A stretch of 64,000 nucleotides of DNA. Origin: Nitrospira sp. Lineage in GTDB: Bacteria > Nitrospirota > Nitrospiria > Nitrospirales > Nitrospiraceae. Shown one piece after another: positions 55,549-63,621 of the stretch; the first letter of the stretch is position 1; every line of letters starts with the position of its first letter. The position numbers and the translations under genes were made by a program. The stretch covers positions 1 through 64,000 of the forward strand of contig JANDJE010000006.1 in assembly GCA_024331095.1 (NCBI GenBank). The letters run 5' to 3'. The notes beneath the pieces are model-generated. The model worked only from the letters and a program-made list of their open reading frames with translations, did not search any database and was not told where the DNA came from.

Positions 55549-56067
55549 TCAGGAAAGGGTGCCGAACCGCCGAATCTGCTCGGCCAACGTGGAAGCCACC
55601 AGGTCCAAATCAAAGGGCCAGGCGTACCGAATCGTGACGTGCGGATAGAGAGGGCGAAGCTGTGCCAGGATCTCCGGGATCTCGACTTCGGAGTGGGATC
55701 CTCCGGGCGTGAACATGGTTGTCGTCACGATGACGTCGGTGGCGCCTCGATCGATCAAGGCGCGGACCGATTCTTCGAGCGTCGGCGCGCAGAATTCATT
55801 GAAGGCGATGCCGAACAACGCGCCGTTCAGTTGAGATTGCAGGCGGGCGGCCACCGCTTGAAGCCCGAAGAGATAGGGATCGGTCTCCGCCGTCCTCGGC
55901 CAACGCCGGATCGTCGTATCCAGCTCGATTTCTTCCCGCGACGGCGGTTGGTGGGCGGCCCGACGCCGGGCTTCCAACCGTTTCAGTCTCGTCACCAGAT
56001 CTTGCGGACAGTCTTTGGGAATTCCTCCGTGTCCGACCAACACCACTCCTTGCATGCCCGTTCTCAT
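55549..56067 (-). CDS. CbiX/sirohydrochlorin cobaltochelatase-like protein
   Basis: GVVLVGHGGIPKDCP...FNEFCAPTLEESVRALIDRGATDVIVTTTMFTPGGSHSEVEIP. Confidence 0.8.
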   Translation of the reverse strand: MRTGMQGVVLVGHGGIPKDCPQDLVTRLKRLEARRRAAHQPPSREEIELDTTIRRWPRTAETDPYLFGLQAVAARLQSQLNGALFGIAFNEFCAPTLEESVRALIDRGATDVIVTTTMFTPGGSHSEVEIPEILAQLRPLYPHVTIRYAWPFDLDLVASTLAEQIRRFGTLS

Positions 56068-56082: not shown

Positions 56083-57045
56083 CTAGACGTGGTTGCGCAG
56101 CATCAGTTCCTTGGGATGGGGGTTGAGATAAATCTGATCGCGCACGTACCCGACGTCGAAGAGCCGGACGTAGTGTTTGATCAACGTCAGGGGCACGATC
56201 AACGGCGTAAGACCGAGCCGATAGTCGCCGATGACGCTCAGCAATTCCGATTTCTCCTCCGGACGGAGTCGATCCTTGAAGTGGCCCGCGATATGGTGCA
56301 GCACGTTCACGTGTTTACGGACCGTGGCTTTGACGGCGAGGGCCTTCATGAAGAGCGATCCGTATTTCACGGCCAATTCTTTCGGTCCGTACCGATGAGC
56401 CTGGGCGACCAGCCGGCCGAGTTTTTCATAGTCCTGCGGACTGTGGGCGAGCAGAAGATATTTGTGAATGGTATGGAACCGCACCATCGCCTGCCGCGTG
56501 ACGCCGGCGCGGATCAATTGCCGGAAACGTTGGTAGCAGAACACTCGCTCGATGAAGTTCTCCCTGATGGCGGGATCGCAGAGGCGTCCTTCCTCTTCCA
56601 CGGGAATCAGCGGAAACTTCGCCATAAAGGCCTGGGCGAAGAGTCCCGTGCCGTTTCGGTTGGGCATGCCGTGTTCGTTGAAGATGCGAACCCGCTCGAT
56701 CCCGCAACTGGGCGAATTCTTCTTAAAGACGTACCCGCATAGATCCAGGCTTGCCAGTTCCTCCAGCCGTTTGGCGGTTGCGGTCATCAACGCCCTTGTG
56801 TGGTCGATTCCGCTCGTGACGGTCACGAGACGAACCTGCTGGGTCTGGTGCGATCGCCCGACCAGCCGCATTGCTTCGCGAGGAGTACCCAAGCCCGCCT
56901 CCACCTCCGGGCAGACCGGCACCCACTCGACGTAGGGGCCCAGGACTTCCGTCAAGAAAGGATCTTTCTTGTGCCCCCCGTCGTAACGAACCGGGTCCCC
57001 GAGCAGACACCGGCTGATTCCCAGACGAAGCGGGATGGCCGTCAT
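56083..57045 (-). CDS. DUF523 + DUF1722 (YbgA-like) fusion protein
   Basis: LRLGISRCLLGDPVRYDGGHKKD (DUF523), then VRFHTIHKYLLLAHSPQDYEKLGRLVAQ (DUF1722); ATGA overlap with phrB. Confidence 0.88.
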   Translation of the reverse strand: MTAIPLRLGISRCLLGDPVRYDGGHKKDPFLTEVLGPYVEWVPVCPEVEAGLGTPREAMRLVGRSHQTQQVRLVTVTSGIDHTRALMTATAKRLEELASLDLCGYVFKKNSPSCGIERVRIFNEHGMPNRNGTGLFAQAFMAKFPLIPVEEEGRLCDPAIRENFIERVFCYQRFRQLIRAGVTRQAMVRFHTIHKYLLLAHSPQDYEKLGRLVAQAHRYGPKELAVKYGSLFMKALAVKATVRKHVNVLHHIAGHFKDRLRPEEKSELLSVIGDYRLGLTPLIVPLTLIKHYVRLFDVGYVRDQIYLNPHPKELMLRNHV

Positions 57046-58490
57046 GGGACCCTCTCGCGCTTGCCGAGGGCGAGATACTCTTCGCGCGCCAAACGATGAT
57101 CCACGATCGGCGCGGGATAATCGATTCCAATCCGGCATCGGGCGTCCGCCTGTTCGCCGAGGGGCATCAAGTGGGGTTCGTGAATCTTGGCCGTCGGCAC
57201 CGAGGCCAGTTCCGGCACATAGCGCCGAATGTAGAGCCCCTCCGGATCGAATTTCTTGCTCTGCAACGCCGGATTGAAAATGCGATAGCCCCTCATGGCG
57301 TCCGTTCCCGTCGAGGCGCACCATTGCCAATTGCCGTTGTTCGCGGCCACGTCGGCGTCGAGTAGGTGCGCCATGAAATACCGCTCGCCGCTCTGCCAGT
57401 CGATACGCAGGTCTTTAATCAAAAACGAGGCCACGATCATCCGGACTCGGTTGTGCATCCAGCCGGTTTGCGTCAATTGCCTCATGCCGGCATCCACGAT
57501 CGGATAGCCGGTCTTTCCCTCGCACCAGGCCTGAAACAACCGGTCTCGTTCCGGCCCCGGCTCCCGTGCCGGCGGAACGGGGACGTGACGGAAGGGACCC
57601 GAGACCACGTGGGGAAACTCAACCAGCACCTGCTGAAAGAACTCTCGCCAAATCAGCTCATCCACCCAGATGAGCACGTCGGGACGAGAAACGTTTCCTC
57701 CGCCTTTGGCCAACGTCTTGAGCGCCGCTTGGACAGCGGCGCGGGGGGAGATCGTGCCGAAACGAAAGTGGGGAGAAAGTTGAGAGCTTCCGTCGATTCC
57801 GGGAACGTTACGGCCGGTGCCGTAGCGATGCAGAGGACCGTCGCAGAACCGACGCAGCCGTTCCCAGGCCTTGCGTTCGCCCGGTGCGATCCAAGGGGAG
57901 AGCGGCGCGTAGCCCAACTCTTCCGCGGATGGCAGCGGGCCGGACGGCGGAACCGCCGCCCGCTTCGAGACGGCCAAGGAAGTCGGAACAGAAAGCGCCG
58001 TGGGCTTGGCGGCGCGCCAGTGGGCCCACCAACGTGCCCGATAGGCGCTGTATCGTTGCAGCGGTTCTCCGGTCGAGCTCCTGATTTCGTGGGCTTCGAA
58101 CACGACATGATCCTTAAAAGTTCTGACAGATACTCCCATGCGCTCCAGTTGCTGCCGGACCTGCCGGTCACGAACCTGTGCCCGCGGCTCGTAATCGCGA
58201 TTCCAATAGACGATGTCGGCTTTCCAGTCTCGCGCGGCCCGTGCCACCTCCTCCACCGGTTCGCCGCGCCGCCACTCGAGTGCGAGACCTCGATCAGCCA
58301 GCGAGGCGGCCAACTCGCGCAGCGATCCCAGCATGAAGTTCACGCAGGCCGCTCCGAACTCGCGTGACCGGAGCAGCGGGTCATCAAACACGAAAAAAGG
58401 GATCACTTCATCGCATTCCGCGCAAGCCGCGCTCAGGGCCGGCTGATCGGCCAGGCGAAGGTCCCTTCGAAACCAAACGATACCGCGCAT
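57042..58490 (-). CDS. phrB: Deoxyribodipyrimidine photolyase
   Basis: GIVWFRRDLRLADQPAL; TGYPIVDAGMRQLTQTGWMHNRVRMIVASFLIKDLRIDWQSGERYFMAHLLDADVAANNGNWQW. Confidence 0.96.
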   Translation of the reverse strand: MRGIVWFRRDLRLADQPALSAACAECDEVIPFFVFDDPLLRSREFGAACVNFMLGSLRELAASLADRGLALEWRRGEPVEEVARAARDWKADIVYWNRDYEPRAQVRDRQVRQQLERMGVSVRTFKDHVVFEAHEIRSSTGEPLQRYSAYRARWWAHWRAAKPTALSVPTSLAVSKRAAVPPSGPLPSAEELGYAPLSPWIAPGERKAWERLRRFCDGPLHRYGTGRNVPGIDGSSQLSPHFRFGTISPRAAVQAALKTLAKGGGNVSRPDVLIWVDELIWREFFQQVLVEFPHVVSGPFRHVPVPPAREPGPERDRLFQAWCEGKTGYPIVDAGMRQLTQTGWMHNRVRMIVASFLIKDLRIDWQSGERYFMAHLLDADVAANNGNWQWCASTGTDAMRGYRIFNPALQSKKFDPEGLYIRRYVPELASVPTAKIHEPHLMPLGEQADARCRIGIDYPAPIVDHRLAREEYLALGKRERVP

Positions 58491-58641: not shown

Positions 58642-59556
58642 TCATTCCTCCGAGAAAATCGCTCGCAGGGCCGGCTCCAACGAGGGATAGCGAAACATGT
58701 AGCCTCCGGCGAGCGCCTTGGCCGGACGAACACGCTGTCCGGTTGTTAAGAGCGATCCCAACTCTCCCAGCGCCAGATGCAATGCCGCGCTGGGGACGGG
58801 GAGCCATGATGGGCGGCCAAGGACCCGTCCGAGAGCGTTGCAGAATTGCCTCATGGTTTCCGGCTCCGGCGCGACGGCATTGAGAGGGCCAGAGACATGG
58901 GGCGTTTCGATCGCCCAGCGGATCAGTCCGATGTGATCCTGTCGATGAATCCAGGAGACCCACTGGCTTCCCGGCAGGATCGGCCCCCCCATGAAAAGTT
59001 TGAACGGGAGCACCATGCGCGGCAACGCGCCGCCGTCCCGTTCCAGCACCATGCCGGTTCTGAGCAGCACCACGCGCGTTCCGAATTGCCCGGCGAGTAA
59101 CGCTTCCGCTTCCCATTGAAGACAAAGATCCGCAAGGAAGCCTTTTCCGGGGGGCGAACGTTCGTCCAGGATTCGGTCATCGCCGGCTCCATAGTAGCCG
59201 ATACCGGAGGCGTTGATGAGGATCGACGGGCGCGATGATTGACGGGAGATGGCCCGGACCAGCAGGCGCGTCGTGAGAATTCGGCTGTCGGTGATCCGGC
59301 GCTTTCGCGCTTCCGTCCAGCGCGATTCGGCAATGGGTGCTCCGGCCAGGTTGATGATGGCATCGGCCCCCTCAAAACACCGTTCCCAGGCTCCCTCCCG
59401 CATGCCGTCCCACTCGACTACTGTTGGGTTGGCCTGCACCCCTTGCGGGGTTTCTCTCGTTCTGGCGAGCACGGTCACGCGATGGCCGTCTTGAACCAAG
59501 GAGGCGCACAAGGCTCGGCCGATGAATCCCGTCCCCCCGGCCACGATGATGTTCAT
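58642..59556 (-). CDS. TIGR01777/SDR39U1-family epimerase-like protein
   Basis: MNIIVAGGTGFIGRALCASLVQDGHRVTVLAR...INLAGAPIAESRWTEARKRRITDSRI. Confidence 0.92.
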   Translation of the reverse strand: MNIIVAGGTGFIGRALCASLVQDGHRVTVLARTRETPQGVQANPTVVEWDGMREGAWERCFEGADAIINLAGAPIAESRWTEARKRRITDSRILTTRLLVRAISRQSSRPSILINASGIGYYGAGDDRILDERSPPGKGFLADLCLQWEAEALLAGQFGTRVVLLRTGMVLERDGGALPRMVLPFKLFMGGPILPGSQWVSWIHRQDHIGLIRWAIETPHVSGPLNAVAPEPETMRQFCNALGRVLGRPSWLPVPSAALHLALGELGSLLTTGQRVRPAKALAGGYMFRYPSLEPALRAIFSEE

Positions 59557-59618: not shown

Positions 59619-59786
59619 TCATACTCTTGAGTCGCCGTCGGGCGTTCTCAAGGAATCCTTCCGAGACTGCTGTCTGTCCGCACGTCGTCGCACTGGAACC
59701 GCGCGAGCCGAATGCTCGATGATGAATCTGCGAATCGCCGCCTCCATCACCACCGCCAGCGCCAAGATCGCTATCGTCACCATCAT
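59619..59786 (-). CDS. Putative 55-aa single-TM small protein
   Basis: Hand-read: MMVTIAILALAVVMEAAIRRFIIEHSARAVPVRRRADRQQSRKDSLRTPDGDSRV*, preceded by GAGGAGGAG. Confidence 0.4.
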   Translation of the reverse strand: MMVTIAILALAVVMEAAIRRFIIEHSARAVPVRRRADRQQSRKDSLRTPDGDSRV

Positions 59787-59842
59787 CTCCTCCTCATGTG
59801 TCGAGCAAGGCCAGGACGTCGGAGTGGCTCGGCGCGCCGAGG

Positions 59843-59872
59843 AGCCGGGCTCTCGAAATCGAGAGCCCGGCT
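59843..59872 (-). terminator. Long perfect hairpin, candidate terminator or processing site
   Basis: AGCCGGGCTCTCG-AAAT-CGAGAGCCCGGCT, 13-bp perfect stem, next to palindrome CTCGGCGCGCCGAG; no U-tract. Confidence 0.45.
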
Positions 59873-59986
59873 ACCTCAGGGGCCGCGCCGTGCGGAGTAG
59901 CGGCACGACCCGGGCGACCGGCCTCCGCCTCGCTTGTGTTGTTGGTTCAGTTCCATCCCGTTCATGATTGTCGAATCAAGGTCCTT

Positions 59987-60829
59987 CTATTCGGTCGTTG
60001 TGTTCAGACTTCTGGCGCATCGAAAACCGGTGCCATGCGTTTGAAGCGCGAACCCGCCCCGCCCCCGGGCCGCGGCCCGAACGTCGTTTGCGGGACTGTG
60101 CCAAGAGCCTCCCCTAATGGACCGAACCACTCCTTTTTTCTCCGGCCCCTGGGGGTTTCGGTTCGGCGCCTGCGCATAGTAGTCCGCCTCGTACCAATCG
60201 GCCACCCACTCCCGCGCGTTGCCCGCCATGTCCTTGACACCGTAGGGAGAGTCTCCTTCGGGCAGCGATCCCACGGCGTGCAGGGTTCTCTGCCCGTCCC
60301 ACTCCCGGTCAAAATTCGCCCGCCGGGGAGTCGGCGGGTCGTTGCCCCATGGATACAGGCGTCCGTCGGTTCCACGAGCGGCTTTTTCCCACTCGGCTTC
60401 CGTGGGCAATCGTTTTTGAGCCCAGGTGCAATAGGCTGTGGCATCATACCAGGTCGTCTGCACGACGGGCAGTTGCTCAAGGCCCTTAATGGATTGAAGC
60501 GGACCGGTTCCGAAGGGGTCGGGAGGAGGACGGTGGCCGGTTGCCTTGACGAATCGCATATACCGTTCGTTGGTGACTTCAACTTGATCAATCTCGAACG
60601 CGTCGAGATAGACGGATCGCTGCGGCCATTCGTCCGGGCGGCCTTGTCCCTCGGGGCTGCCCATGAGGAATTCACCGGCCGGGATGATAATCATCGGGAC
60701 CGGGTCGGGTCCGTGCGAGGAAGGGGATGACGTGCCCGCAGACGCCCATTGCTCCGCTCCCAACATTGTCACCGCAATCAACGTGATTTGGACGAGTCGA
60801 CTCACGGTATCTTTCAGACCGGTTCTCAC
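59987..60829 (-). CDS. Formylglycine-generating-enzyme/SUMF1-fold exported protein (copy A)
   Basis: MIIPAGEFLMGSPEGQGRPDEWPQRSVYLDAFEIDQVEVTNERY...KRLPTEAEWEKAARG...GGSW...GFRCARS. Confidence 0.88.
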   Translation of the reverse strand: MRTGLKDTVSRLVQITLIAVTMLGAEQWASAGTSSPSSHGPDPVPMIIIPAGEFLMGSPEGQGRPDEWPQRSVYLDAFEIDQVEVTNERYMRFVKATGHRPPPDPFGTGPLQSIKGLEQLPVVQTTWYDATAYCTWAQKRLPTEAEWEKAARGTDGRLYPWGNDPPTPRRANFDREWDGQRTLHAVGSLPEGDSPYGVKDMAGNAREWVADWYEADYYAQAPNRNPQGPEKKGVVRSIRGGSWHSPANDVRAAARGRGGFALQTHGTGFRCARSLNTTTE

Positions 60830-61209
60830 TTCTTGGGCTCCTTGCTCCCCTCGATGGCATGGGCGGTGTGGATCCGGACGAGATTCACGAGTCGCTCCAC
60901 CGTTCGATTGTCCCCTTGCCGCGCGGCTTCGAGCGCTTGTGTGATAAGGGTTCTGGCTTCGTGTAGGTGTTCTTCGATCGTGGCCTGGAGTGCGGGCGAT
61001 GCCACGGTGCCACCCAACGCCGCCCGGTGATAGACTTCCCAGGCGTCATCGACCTCATGGGCGGCCTGGTGCACCGTTCGGAGGACTTCCTGATACGGAT
61101 GATCCGTTCCTTCCCCTTCCAGAGGGCCGGCGGTGAGATGAGAAGGCCCCAGACATGAGACGAGCAACATGCCGGGAATCAGCAATCCTTTTTTTACGAA
61201 CGTTTTCAT
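60826..61209 (-). CDS. Hypothetical exported helical protein
   Basis: Signal MKTFVKKGLLIPGMLLVSCLGPSHLTAGP; helical C-terminal half; overlaps SUMF1-A start by 4 bp. Confidence 0.65.
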   Translation of the reverse strand: MKTFVKKGLLIPGMLLVSCLGPSHLTAGPLEGEGTDHPYQEVLRTVHQAAHEVDDAWEVYHRAALGGTVASPALQATIEEHLHEARTLITQALEAARQGDNRTVERLVNLVRIHTAHAIEGSKEPKK

Positions 61210-61302: not shown

Positions 61303-62256
61303 TCATTTGTTTCGTTTCATCGCTTTCTGGATAAGATCGCGGGTCGCCAGATATTCTTGGTTGTCCGGGTCGATGGCCAACGCCTTTTCAATAGCGGTCA
61401 ACGCGTTCGCGTACTTTTCGGCTCCCATGAACACAAGTGTTTGGATAAAGGCGTCACGTGCCTCCTGCCGCATGTCGTCGGAAACGACCCGGGCCGATTT
61501 GGCGCAGCGAAAACCCAGCCCCACCCCATAAGAATTATTCTCCGGCTGGTTCCAGAACCGGTGACTGGTATGGAGCGAGGTCTCCGGCGCCAGCCATGAT
61601 CCTCCGCGCAGAACGCGGACCGGCCCTTGATTGGCAAAGTTGTAGCCCTTCTCCGGCCCTTGGGGGTTGAGGGCCACACTCTGCCTATAATAGTTAGGAT
61701 CGTACCAGTCCTGGACCCACTCGAAAACGTTTCCCGCCATATTATGGACGCCGAAGCCGCTCACGCCCCCCGGATAGGAATCAACCGGGGCCGTGCGCCC
61801 GACGTTTTGACCGTAGTTGGCCTTGCTCGGATCGAGCGAGTGTCCCCAGGGATAATGGTTGTCTCCGGAAGGGCCCTTAGCCGCCCGTTCCCATTCCGCT
61901 TCCGTCGGCAGTCTCTTCCCCTCCCACTTGCAGAAGGCGGCGGCGTCGGTCCAACTGACCCCCACAACAGGCTGATCGGATTTGTTCAGCCGCGGATCGT
62001 CCCAGTAGGCCGGAGCGGGATGGCCCGTCGCCCTCATGAATTCTTTATAGCGCGCGTTGGACGTTTCGTACTTGTCGATGTAATAGGCATCGAGCACGAC
62101 TTGATGTTTGGGTTCATCGGAATGTTCGTTGCTCCCCATCGTGAACTCACCGTGGGGAATCAGCACCATGTCGGTTTCGGCGGCGGAAATGTCCGTCACC
62201 GCAGTGAGAGAAATGGCTCCCCCCACCATGAGCATCGCCAGCGTTTGACTCCGCAT
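61303..62256 (-). CDS. Formylglycine-generating-enzyme/SUMF1-fold exported protein (copy B)
   Basis: MVLIPHGEFTMGSNEHSDEPKHQVVLDAYYIDKYETSNARYKEFM...KRLPTEAEWERAAKGPSGDNHYPWG...VLRGGSW...LGFRCAKS. Confidence 0.88.
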   Translation of the reverse strand: MRSQTLAMLMVGGAISLTAVTDISAAETDMVLIPHGEFTMGSNEHSDEPKHQVVLDAYYIDKYETSNARYKEFMRATGHPAPAYWDDPRLNKSDQPVVGVSWTDAAAFCKWEGKRLPTEAEWERAAKGPSGDNHYPWGHSLDPSKANYGQNVGRTAPVDSYPGGVSGFGVHNMAGNVFEWVQDWYDPNYYRQSVALNPQGPEKGYNFANQGPVRVLRGGSWLAPETSLHTSHRFWNQPENNSYGVGLGFRCAKSARVVSDDMRQEARDAFIQTLVFMGAEKYANALTAIEKALAIDPDNQEYLATRDLIQKAMKRNK

Positions 62257-62284: not shown

Positions 62285-62575
62285 CTAGGCTGCCACCCAC
62301 AGTTCCGCAGAAACGGTTGCGGTCCCGCCTGGCTCGGTGGCTTGTCGGCTCTGACCAAGTCGGCGATTCCGCAGGATCACAGGATCGACGATGTCACCGC
62401 ACTGGATGCAGCGAAGGGCAGCAAACTCCAGCTCGCGGTCGCTGTTCAACAGATCCATGCAGATGTGGCCGACCAAGAGTCCTCCGCATCGGGCGCAGGT
62501 CTGGTGGGAAGCATTGGCGGGATGACCTTCCGAGATTTCCCGTTCACTTATATGCCCTAAGAGTAGTGAAGCCAT
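62285..62575 (-). CDS. Zinc-ribbon-like small protein
   Basis: CARCGGLLVGHICMDLL...ALRCIQCGDIVDPVILRNRR: two CxxC knuckles. Confidence 0.6.
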   Translation of the reverse strand: MASLLLGHISEREISEGHPANASHQTCARCGGLLVGHICMDLLNSDRELEFAALRCIQCGDIVDPVILRNRRLGQSRQATEPGGTATVSAELWVAA

Positions 62576-62618
62576 AGGAGACTCCTTTTTGTTTAATGTT
62601 CGTCAACCATATGTTCAA

Positions 62619-62647
62619 TGTATATCTAATTTGTCCATAGTTGTCAA
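62619..62647 (-). promoter_or_regulatory. Near-consensus sigma70 promoter TTGACA-N17-TATACA driving the minus-strand run
   Basis: Read on minus strand: TTGACA ACTATGGACAAATTAGA TATACA. Confidence 0.7.
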
Positions 62648-62665
62648 CAGTTATTTTTTAAAATA

Positions 62666-62694
62666 TTGACAAAGACTGAACATCACGATAAGCT
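62666..62694 (+). promoter_or_regulatory. Putative promoter TTGACA-N17-TAAGCT for the MerR/B12 regulator
   Basis: Consensus -35, weak -10, positioned 7 nt before the ATG. Confidence 0.4.
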
Positions 62695-62700
62695 GAAACT

Positions 62701-63621
62701 ATGAAAAATCATAGAATTCATAGGGTTGCAAAATTGACCGGTTTGTCGAGAGACGTGATACGGGTCTGGGAAAAACGATACGGTCTGGTCAAGCCTCTGC
62801 GCAGCGCAAACCGCTATCGTGAGTACACGGATGAAGATGTGGCGTTGCTCAGGTTTTTGAAAGAGGAAGTGGACCGTGGTCAGACTATCGGATCTCTTGC
62901 CATTGAAGGGCGGGATTCACTGCTTCAGCGCATGCGACTGTGCGCGACCCCAAAGTTACAGGAACTGACGCCGCACAAGTCGTTGCTGGATGAGCTGGTC
63001 GCGTGTCTTGATCCGCTCGATAAGGTGCGGTTTGAACATAAGCTCAACGGAGCGGTGGCGGTGATTCCCTTCGATGAAGCGATTCAACGGATTCTGCTCC
63101 CATTGGAACGGCTGGTCGGTGAGCTGTGGCACCAAGGGAGAATCGACATTGCCGTTGAACATTATGTCACGAAGCTCATTCAACAGAAGTTGTTCGCCGT
63201 CATGAATCAGTTGCCGGCCAACGAGTATGGGCCTCGGCTTCTGATCGCCTGCCCCGAGGGCGAGTTGCATGAAATTGGCGCCCAAGCCGTGGCGTATCTG
63301 GCCGCGACGCGCGGCTGCCACGTGTATTATCTAGGCCCCAATCTTCCGACGTCGGCTCTTGCTTCCTTCTGCGACCGAATCAAGCCGGATTTGGTGCTTT
63401 TGTCCCTGACAGAAGTGAAATCGGTTGAAGAGGGAAGCGGCCTGTTGCGAGAGCTTGACGCGCTCGCAGAACGGTGGCCCGTCGCCATCGGCGGGCAGGG
63501 AGCGCGTGCTCTGGAAGAGGCTCTGCGCCAAACCAGGGTCGAGTTCCTTGATGATCTGGCGCAATTCCAAGATCGGCTCACCGCCCTGCTGTCGGTTCAC
63601 TCTCCGTTTTCCCGTTCGTAG
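62701..63621 (+). CDS. MerR-family transcriptional regulator with cobalamin-binding domain (CarH/LitR-like photoreceptor)
   Basis: MerR HTH HRVAKLTGLSRDVIRVWEKRYGLVKPLRSANRYREYTDEDV; W-x9-EH (WHQGRIDIAVEH) and ExHxxG (ELHEIG). Confidence 0.9.
   Translation: MKNHRIHRVAKLTGLSRDVIRVWEKRYGLVKPLRSANRYREYTDEDVALLRFLKEEVDRGQTIGSLAIEGRDSLLQRMRLCATPKLQELTPHKSLLDELVACLDPLDKVRFEHKLNGAVAVIPFDEAIQRILLPLERLVGELWHQGRIDIAVEHYVTKLIQQKLFAVMNQLPANEYGPRLLIACPEGELHEIGAQAVAYLAATRGCHVYYLGPNLPTSALASFCDRIKPDLVLLSLTEVKSVEEGSGLLRELDALAERWPVAIGGQGARALEEALRQTRVEFLDDLAQFQDRLTALLSVHSPFSRS

Follow-up and report, generated by a model that had tools for sequence, protein, structure and literature searches.

Organization of the carH-type locus

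The window, by which we mean the entire 64,000-nucleotide stretch of Nitrospira sp. DNA that was analyzed, contains a carH/litR-like gene on the plus strand (positions 62701 to 63621). Its 306-amino-acid product consists of a MerR helix-turn-helix domain (residues 5 to 64), a B12-binding_2 four-helix bundle (residues 96 to 164), and a B12-binding Rossmann domain (residues 179 to 285). Matches to MerR_1, B12-binding_2 (PF02607), and B12-binding (PF02310) are each above the Pfam cut-off, with the helix-turn-helix matching PF13411 at an E value of 6e−13. The recognition helix motif RxWE(R/K)RY is present, reading RVWEKRYGL in the window's protein and RVWERRY in most of its relatives.

A block of genes diverges from carH on the minus strand. 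The first of them (62285 to 62575) encodes a zinc-ribbon-like protein of 96 amino acids with two CxxC motifs and no Pfam match; in relatives, members of this family are often duplicated ahead of the SDR gene. It is followed by a gene for an exported FGE/SUMF1-like protein (61303 to 62256), in which the cysteine pair that serves catalysis in FGE is missing at the positions that we take, from the human FGE active site, to be equivalent. A gene for a small exported protein (60826 to 61209) then overlaps by 4 bp the gene for a second exported FGE/SUMF1-like protein (59987 to 60829). An FGE-like relative at another locus (L039, 6220 to 7410) is fused to a cytochrome-c-like domain, as judged by a CxxCH motif. 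The second half of the block comprises a 55-amino-acid ORF with a hydrophobic N-terminus (59619 to 59786), an SDR gene of the TIGR01777 family (58642 to 59556), a class I photolyase gene (57042 to 58490), a gene of the tRNA 4-thiouridine desulfidase family RudS (TudS-DUF1722; 56083 to 57045) that overlaps the photolyase gene by 4 bp, and a gene for a CbiX-like protein (55549 to 56067), which is the final conserved gene in most loci. The closest solved structures to the photolyase are the type I enzymes 1tez and 1owl (E = 2e−104). The substrate that RudS strips, 4-thiouridine, is a target of near-UV light, and the genes of this family are frequently located in light-responsive operons (PMC11417400).

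The gene set and its order recur across Nitrospira loci, including that of N. moscoviensis. The two 4-bp overlaps indicate that the genes within each half of the block are probably co-transcribed, and we infer that transcription would extend through the whole 7-kb block. We also considered carotenoid synthesis as a target of the regulator and rejected it: because genes of the squalene/phytoene-synthase family occur in all relatives irrespective of CarH, with the match in the window's genome on another contig, there is no evidence of crt control.

A conserved RNA element inside the block

Between the second FGE-like gene and the 55-amino-acid ORF, covariation points to a structured RNA on the minus strand (59827 to 59925), composed of two hairpins with the invariant loop ACUCCGCA (CUCCGCA). 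In its alignment, 96% of the cells pair and 7 of the 26 pairs vary on both sides. The covariation score is larger than in all 500 shuffles, while the count of two-sided pairs alone does not exceed the shuffles. No Rfam family matches the element. A covariance model detects it in 36 of 200 genomes of the phylum, all of them Nitrospiraceae, and in 27 of the 30 loci inspected (within L111 to L156) it adjoins the second FGE-like gene or its operon neighbors. The element is present in 19 of 19 CarH-bearing genomes of the family and in 2 of 7 genomes without CarH (P = 3e−4, from an overlapping sample). It could act as a transcript-stabilizing or terminating element, as a riboswitch-like element, or as a protein-binding site. 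Because a strong hairpin element separates the FGE-like genes from the photolyase genes, read-through into the latter is not certain.

The candidate sensor retains the cofactor residues of CarH

We compared the protein with CarH/LitR of Thermus thermophilus HB8 (TTH_RS10490, on pTT27; structures 5C8D, 5C8E, and 3WHP), whose chains are its best match in the PDB (E = 3e−30). The first-pass annotation of this DNA had pointed to two cofactor motifs, W-x9-EH and ExHxxG, and had suggested an alignment against CarH structures as a check; when this alignment was carried out, both motifs were found to match those of the Thermus protein. The first, WHQGRIDIAVEH (W-H-x8-E-H, residues 143 to 154; 63127 to 63162, plus strand), places W143, H144, E153, and H154 opposite W131, H132, E141, and H142 of the Thermus motif WHRGEIGVAEEH. 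The second, ELHEIG (residues 188 to 193; 63262 to 63279, plus strand), aligns with ERHEIG. On the residue roles described for CarH (PMC9304148) and the Thermus structures, we take H190 to correspond to H177, the lower axial ligand of the Thermus protein, and H144 to H132, its light-state (bis-His) ligand. In an alignment of 37 relatives that extends down to 30% identity, W143, H144, E153, and H190 are invariant and H154 is kept in at least 90%. All full-length relatives in the database are from Nitrospira, including N. moscoviensis.

The AlphaFold model built on the same 37 relatives has a pLDDT of 88. All 50 of the 50 Foldseek matches listed for this model are of the CarH/LitR type, being T. 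thermophilus CarH and the B12 domain of a Chloracidobacterium MerR protein, and for most of those listed the cobalamin domain superposes at 2.6 to 3.2 Å. Against the CarH equivalog model of NCBIfam (NF052513), the protein scores 133.7 bits relative to a cut-off of 400 bits, which is passed in no control genome, Thermus composti included. On these alignments, the cofactor chemistry of the Nitrospira protein looks to have been kept.

Two divergent sigma70-like promoters carry 11-bp repeats

The intergenic region has a GC content of 29%, compared with 60% for the window, and a value as low is reached only in five overlapping 120-bp segments located there; over 120 bp, no other part of the window is richer in AT, and the first-pass annotation had remarked that this region stands out in GC-rich DNA. 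Two divergent sigma70-like promoters lie within it. The promoter of the minus-strand operon consists of the −35 box TTGACA (62642 to 62647), itself a TnnACA match, and the −10 box TATACA (62619 to 62624) at a spacing of 17 bp, exactly as had been noted before (62647 to 62619). An automated promoter scan came back empty: it accepts only −10 boxes with T as their sixth base and for this reason missed the TATACA promoter, which we judged by hand inspection and by conservation among relatives. The carH promoter has TTGACA at 62666 as its −35 box and, 17 bp farther on, a candidate −10 box TAAGCT (62689 to 62694, plus strand).

Repeats of the form TnnACA overlie both promoters. Where the first-pass annotation had listed at least four, the minus strand has five (62590, 62612, 62619, 62632, and 62642), among them TGGACA in the promoter spacer (62632 to 62637); the plus strand has three (62644, 62666, and 62677). 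Directly downstream of the minus-strand −10 box and over the start region, three CarH-type repeats with an 11-bp period form the array TGAACA-N5-TTGACG-N5-TAAACA (62590 to 62617, minus strand), with TGAACA at 62612, a degenerate TTGACG at 62601, and TAAACA at 62590. On the plus strand, TTGACA-N5-TGAACA is an exact 11-bp direct repeat (62666 and 62677; 62666 to 62682) that was absent from the first-pass annotation. Its first unit doubles as the carH −35 box, which makes it a putative autorepression site. Operators described for CarH comprise 11-bp nnnnTnnACAn units in tandem that overlap the −35 or −10 box (PMC9304148), and the arrays predicted here are, by their sequence, of the same kind and lie over promoter elements. 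The pair TTGTCcAtAG/TTGTCaAcAG, previously reported as a repeat with a 10-bp period, does have that period in the window but is not the 11-bp repeat of CarH operators; we rejected it as an operator unit because most relatives have it with a period of 9.

The AT-rich region has eight TnnACA sites, whereas dinucleotide-shuffled versions of it have 2.7 (P = 0.0016), and a triple array at 11-bp steps with one mismatch or none is also rare in such shuffles (P = 0.005). In 320 kb of sequence from relatives, this triple array has 21 matches, all in carH-type divergent regions, and a reversed control pattern has none. Both arrays, the minus-strand triple and the plus-strand pair, recur in Nitrospira. 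Three genomes, among them that of N. moscoviensis (4.6 Mb), have the exact triple once, at the divergent carH region; it occurs at other places in one genome with CarH (G008) and one without (G025), and a genome-wide search did not find it in two further CarH genomes. Motif columns are better conserved, at 1.61 bits compared with 0.72 for the rest of the intergenic region, a difference to which the promoter boxes contribute and for which the columns were picked from the window. In the window's own genome, the triple with one mismatch has two matches compared with one for the control, which is not significant alone; the argument is carried by conservation. A second operator was sought ahead of the half of the block running from SDR to photolyase and was not found. 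Another operator-type array lies between a zinc-ribbon gene and the gene of a DCC-type (DGxCPxC) protein (L039, 5403 to 5497), and by its sequence likely marks a further member of the regulon.

Distribution of CarH, photolyase, and cofactor supply genes

Among 37 genomes of the genus, 19 encode both CarH and photolyase, 2 only CarH, 4 only photolyase, and 12 neither (Fisher's exact test, P = 8e−5, uncorrected for shared ancestry). One Nitrospira photolyase gene in a genome without CarH has an in-frame TAG and is possibly decaying (G023, C1:3326868), and another genome (G029) has a photolyase fragment only.

In some species, CarH paralogues stand in tandem, two or three together (L043, L046, L048, G005, G008, G024, and G036), and each of those inspected has its own divergent operator-like region. 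In one paralogue clade, EEHDIA replaces ExHxxG, so that the lower-ligand motif is altered and the ligand histidine retained. A more distant MerR-B12 clade (L025 to L027) is directly adjoined by RudS, and in L027 the Wx9EH motif reads EQ for EH.

A search for cobalamin adenosyltransferase (PF01923) was negative in the window's genome, which is 80% complete, and in G009; four near relatives and N. moscoviensis do encode one. A true absence would speak against an AdoCbl-dependent sensor, but we tentatively attribute the gap in the window's genome to incompleteness. This genome also encodes other B12-domain proteins, one of them of MetH length.

A probable light-released repressor of a photoprotection operon

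We consider it likely that the protein belongs to the CarH (class I LitR) type of repressors, which depend on AdoCbl and are released by light, and that it acts on both divergent promoters; it would thus probably shut the UV-repair operon in the dark. In darkness, the AdoCbl-bound protein would oligomerize and its MerR domains would occupy the 11-bp TnnACA repeats, blocking RNA polymerase at carH itself and at the minus-strand operon. UV, blue, or green light would break the Co-C bond, and the oligomer would leave the DNA. Photolyase would then be produced to repair UV-damaged DNA, RudS would take photosensitive 4-thiouridine off tRNA, and carH would be derepressed as well. We infer the binding and photolysis of AdoCbl, as well as repression and derepression, for the window's protein. 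Repression in the dark with relief by light had been the reading of the first-pass annotation, and it is supported by the domain order, signature residues, fold, operator type, and promoter overlap, as well as by the conserved divergent gene set with photolyase and RudS.

Membership of the MerR family could instead suggest a classical activator. Classical MerR activators work at promoters with 19- to 20-bp spacers and inverted repeats, whereas here the spacers are 17 bp and direct repeats lie over the −35 box, spacer, and start region; the spacers therefore fit repression rather than activation, and we regard an activator as very improbable. A sensor of cobalamin supply, in which the AdoCbl level would set repression and light would matter little in a mostly dark organism, is also improbable, if less so. 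H144, the presumed counterpart of the light-state ligand, is invariant in the 37 relatives, and the remaining conserved cargo, photolyase and RudS, is sensible mainly in light. Such a sensor would nevertheless need the same cofactor residues, the block does include a CbiX-like protein, and N. marina, a B12 auxotroph, obtains the vitamin by salvage (PMC8115632).

The neighborhood would also suit a B12-independent regulator that needs a partner, be it a LOV protein, on the model of class II LitR, or, on that of CarA, an antirepressor, since class II LitRs adjoin phrB and RudS, for example in Aeromonas (PMC9758184). However, class II proteins keep B12-binding_2 and lack an intact B12-binding (Rossmann) domain, and the Aeromonas protein lacks ExHxxG, whereas the Nitrospira proteins retain every cofactor residue and PF02310 is above its cut-off in the window's protein. 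CarA has no intact Wx9EH (PMC9304148), and this motif is unbroken here. We think it improbable that such a regulator is at work, slightly more so than a supply sensor. All three alternatives fit less well than a light-released repressor. A further reading, a light module of Nitrospira's own, we hold to be unlikely, though less so than these alternatives: a CarH variant without the Arg-Asp pair would assemble via another interface, photolyase and RudS would be joined by an undescribed envelope set (the zinc-ribbon protein, the non-catalytic FGE-like exported proteins, and the small membrane protein), and the RNA element, specific to the lineage and part of the transcript, would tune the photolyase half.

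Blue light is a strong inhibitor of nitrite oxidizers (PMC9797979 and the reports that it cites), and we found no description of a light sensor in Nitrospira in the literature searched. The sensor type is known; its presence, with a conserved operon, in this nitrite-oxidizing genus that light inhibits appears undescribed. If our reading is true, vitamin B12 is the means by which a globally important chemolithoautotroph senses light and turns on photoprotection of both DNA and tRNA, and at least one member (N. marina) has to import the vitamin. Photo-acclimation of nitrification would be testable in cultured N. moscoviensis, in which the same locus is present (L038).

Comparison with known CarH, LitR, and CarA proteins

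At 32% identity, the Nitrospira protein and T. thermophilus CarH have in common the domain order, Wx9EH, WH, ExHxxG, and fold. They differ at Arg176-Asp201, which we take to be the salt-bridge pair at the head-to-tail dimer interface (E/D-R in others) and which is replaced by Leu-Asn (L189/N214) in the window's protein. Across Nitrospira, the arginine position is occupied by L, W, Y, F, S, T, or E, and the aspartate position by Asn. In the PDB alignment, Gly160 is replaced by Ala, and Gly192 is retained. Given these replacements, the oligomer may differ from the Thermus tetramer. The salt bridge occurs in many, not all, CarH proteins, for which reason we do not treat it as essential to the family, and dimeric CarH proteins exist (PMC9304148).

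The Thermus gene, too, diverges from a unit that includes photolyase (phr), and its upstream region (TGTACA-N5-TTGACA-N5-TATACA) has 11-bp TnnACA repeats with the −35 box inside, as in Nitrospira. Unlike in Thermus, the Nitrospira unit lacks crtB and adds RudS, the FGE-like exported proteins, and the zinc-ribbon protein. CarH operators of Bacillus megaterium and myxobacteria comprise three or four tandem 11-bp nnnnTnnACAn repeats, some degenerate, over the −35 or −10 box (PMC9304148); the CarH proteins known from these bacteria control carotenogenesis, whereas the Nitrospira block has no carotenoid gene. In gene content, the block resembles the surroundings of the class II LitRs PplR and PmlR of Pseudomonas, which adjoin photolyase, SDR, and, in P. 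putida, RudS (PMC9758184, PMC11417400). Those regulators have no functional B12-binding domain and work with LOV proteins, whereas the Nitrospira protein retains all B12 residues and is a well-supported candidate for a photoreceptor of the known CarH/LitR type.
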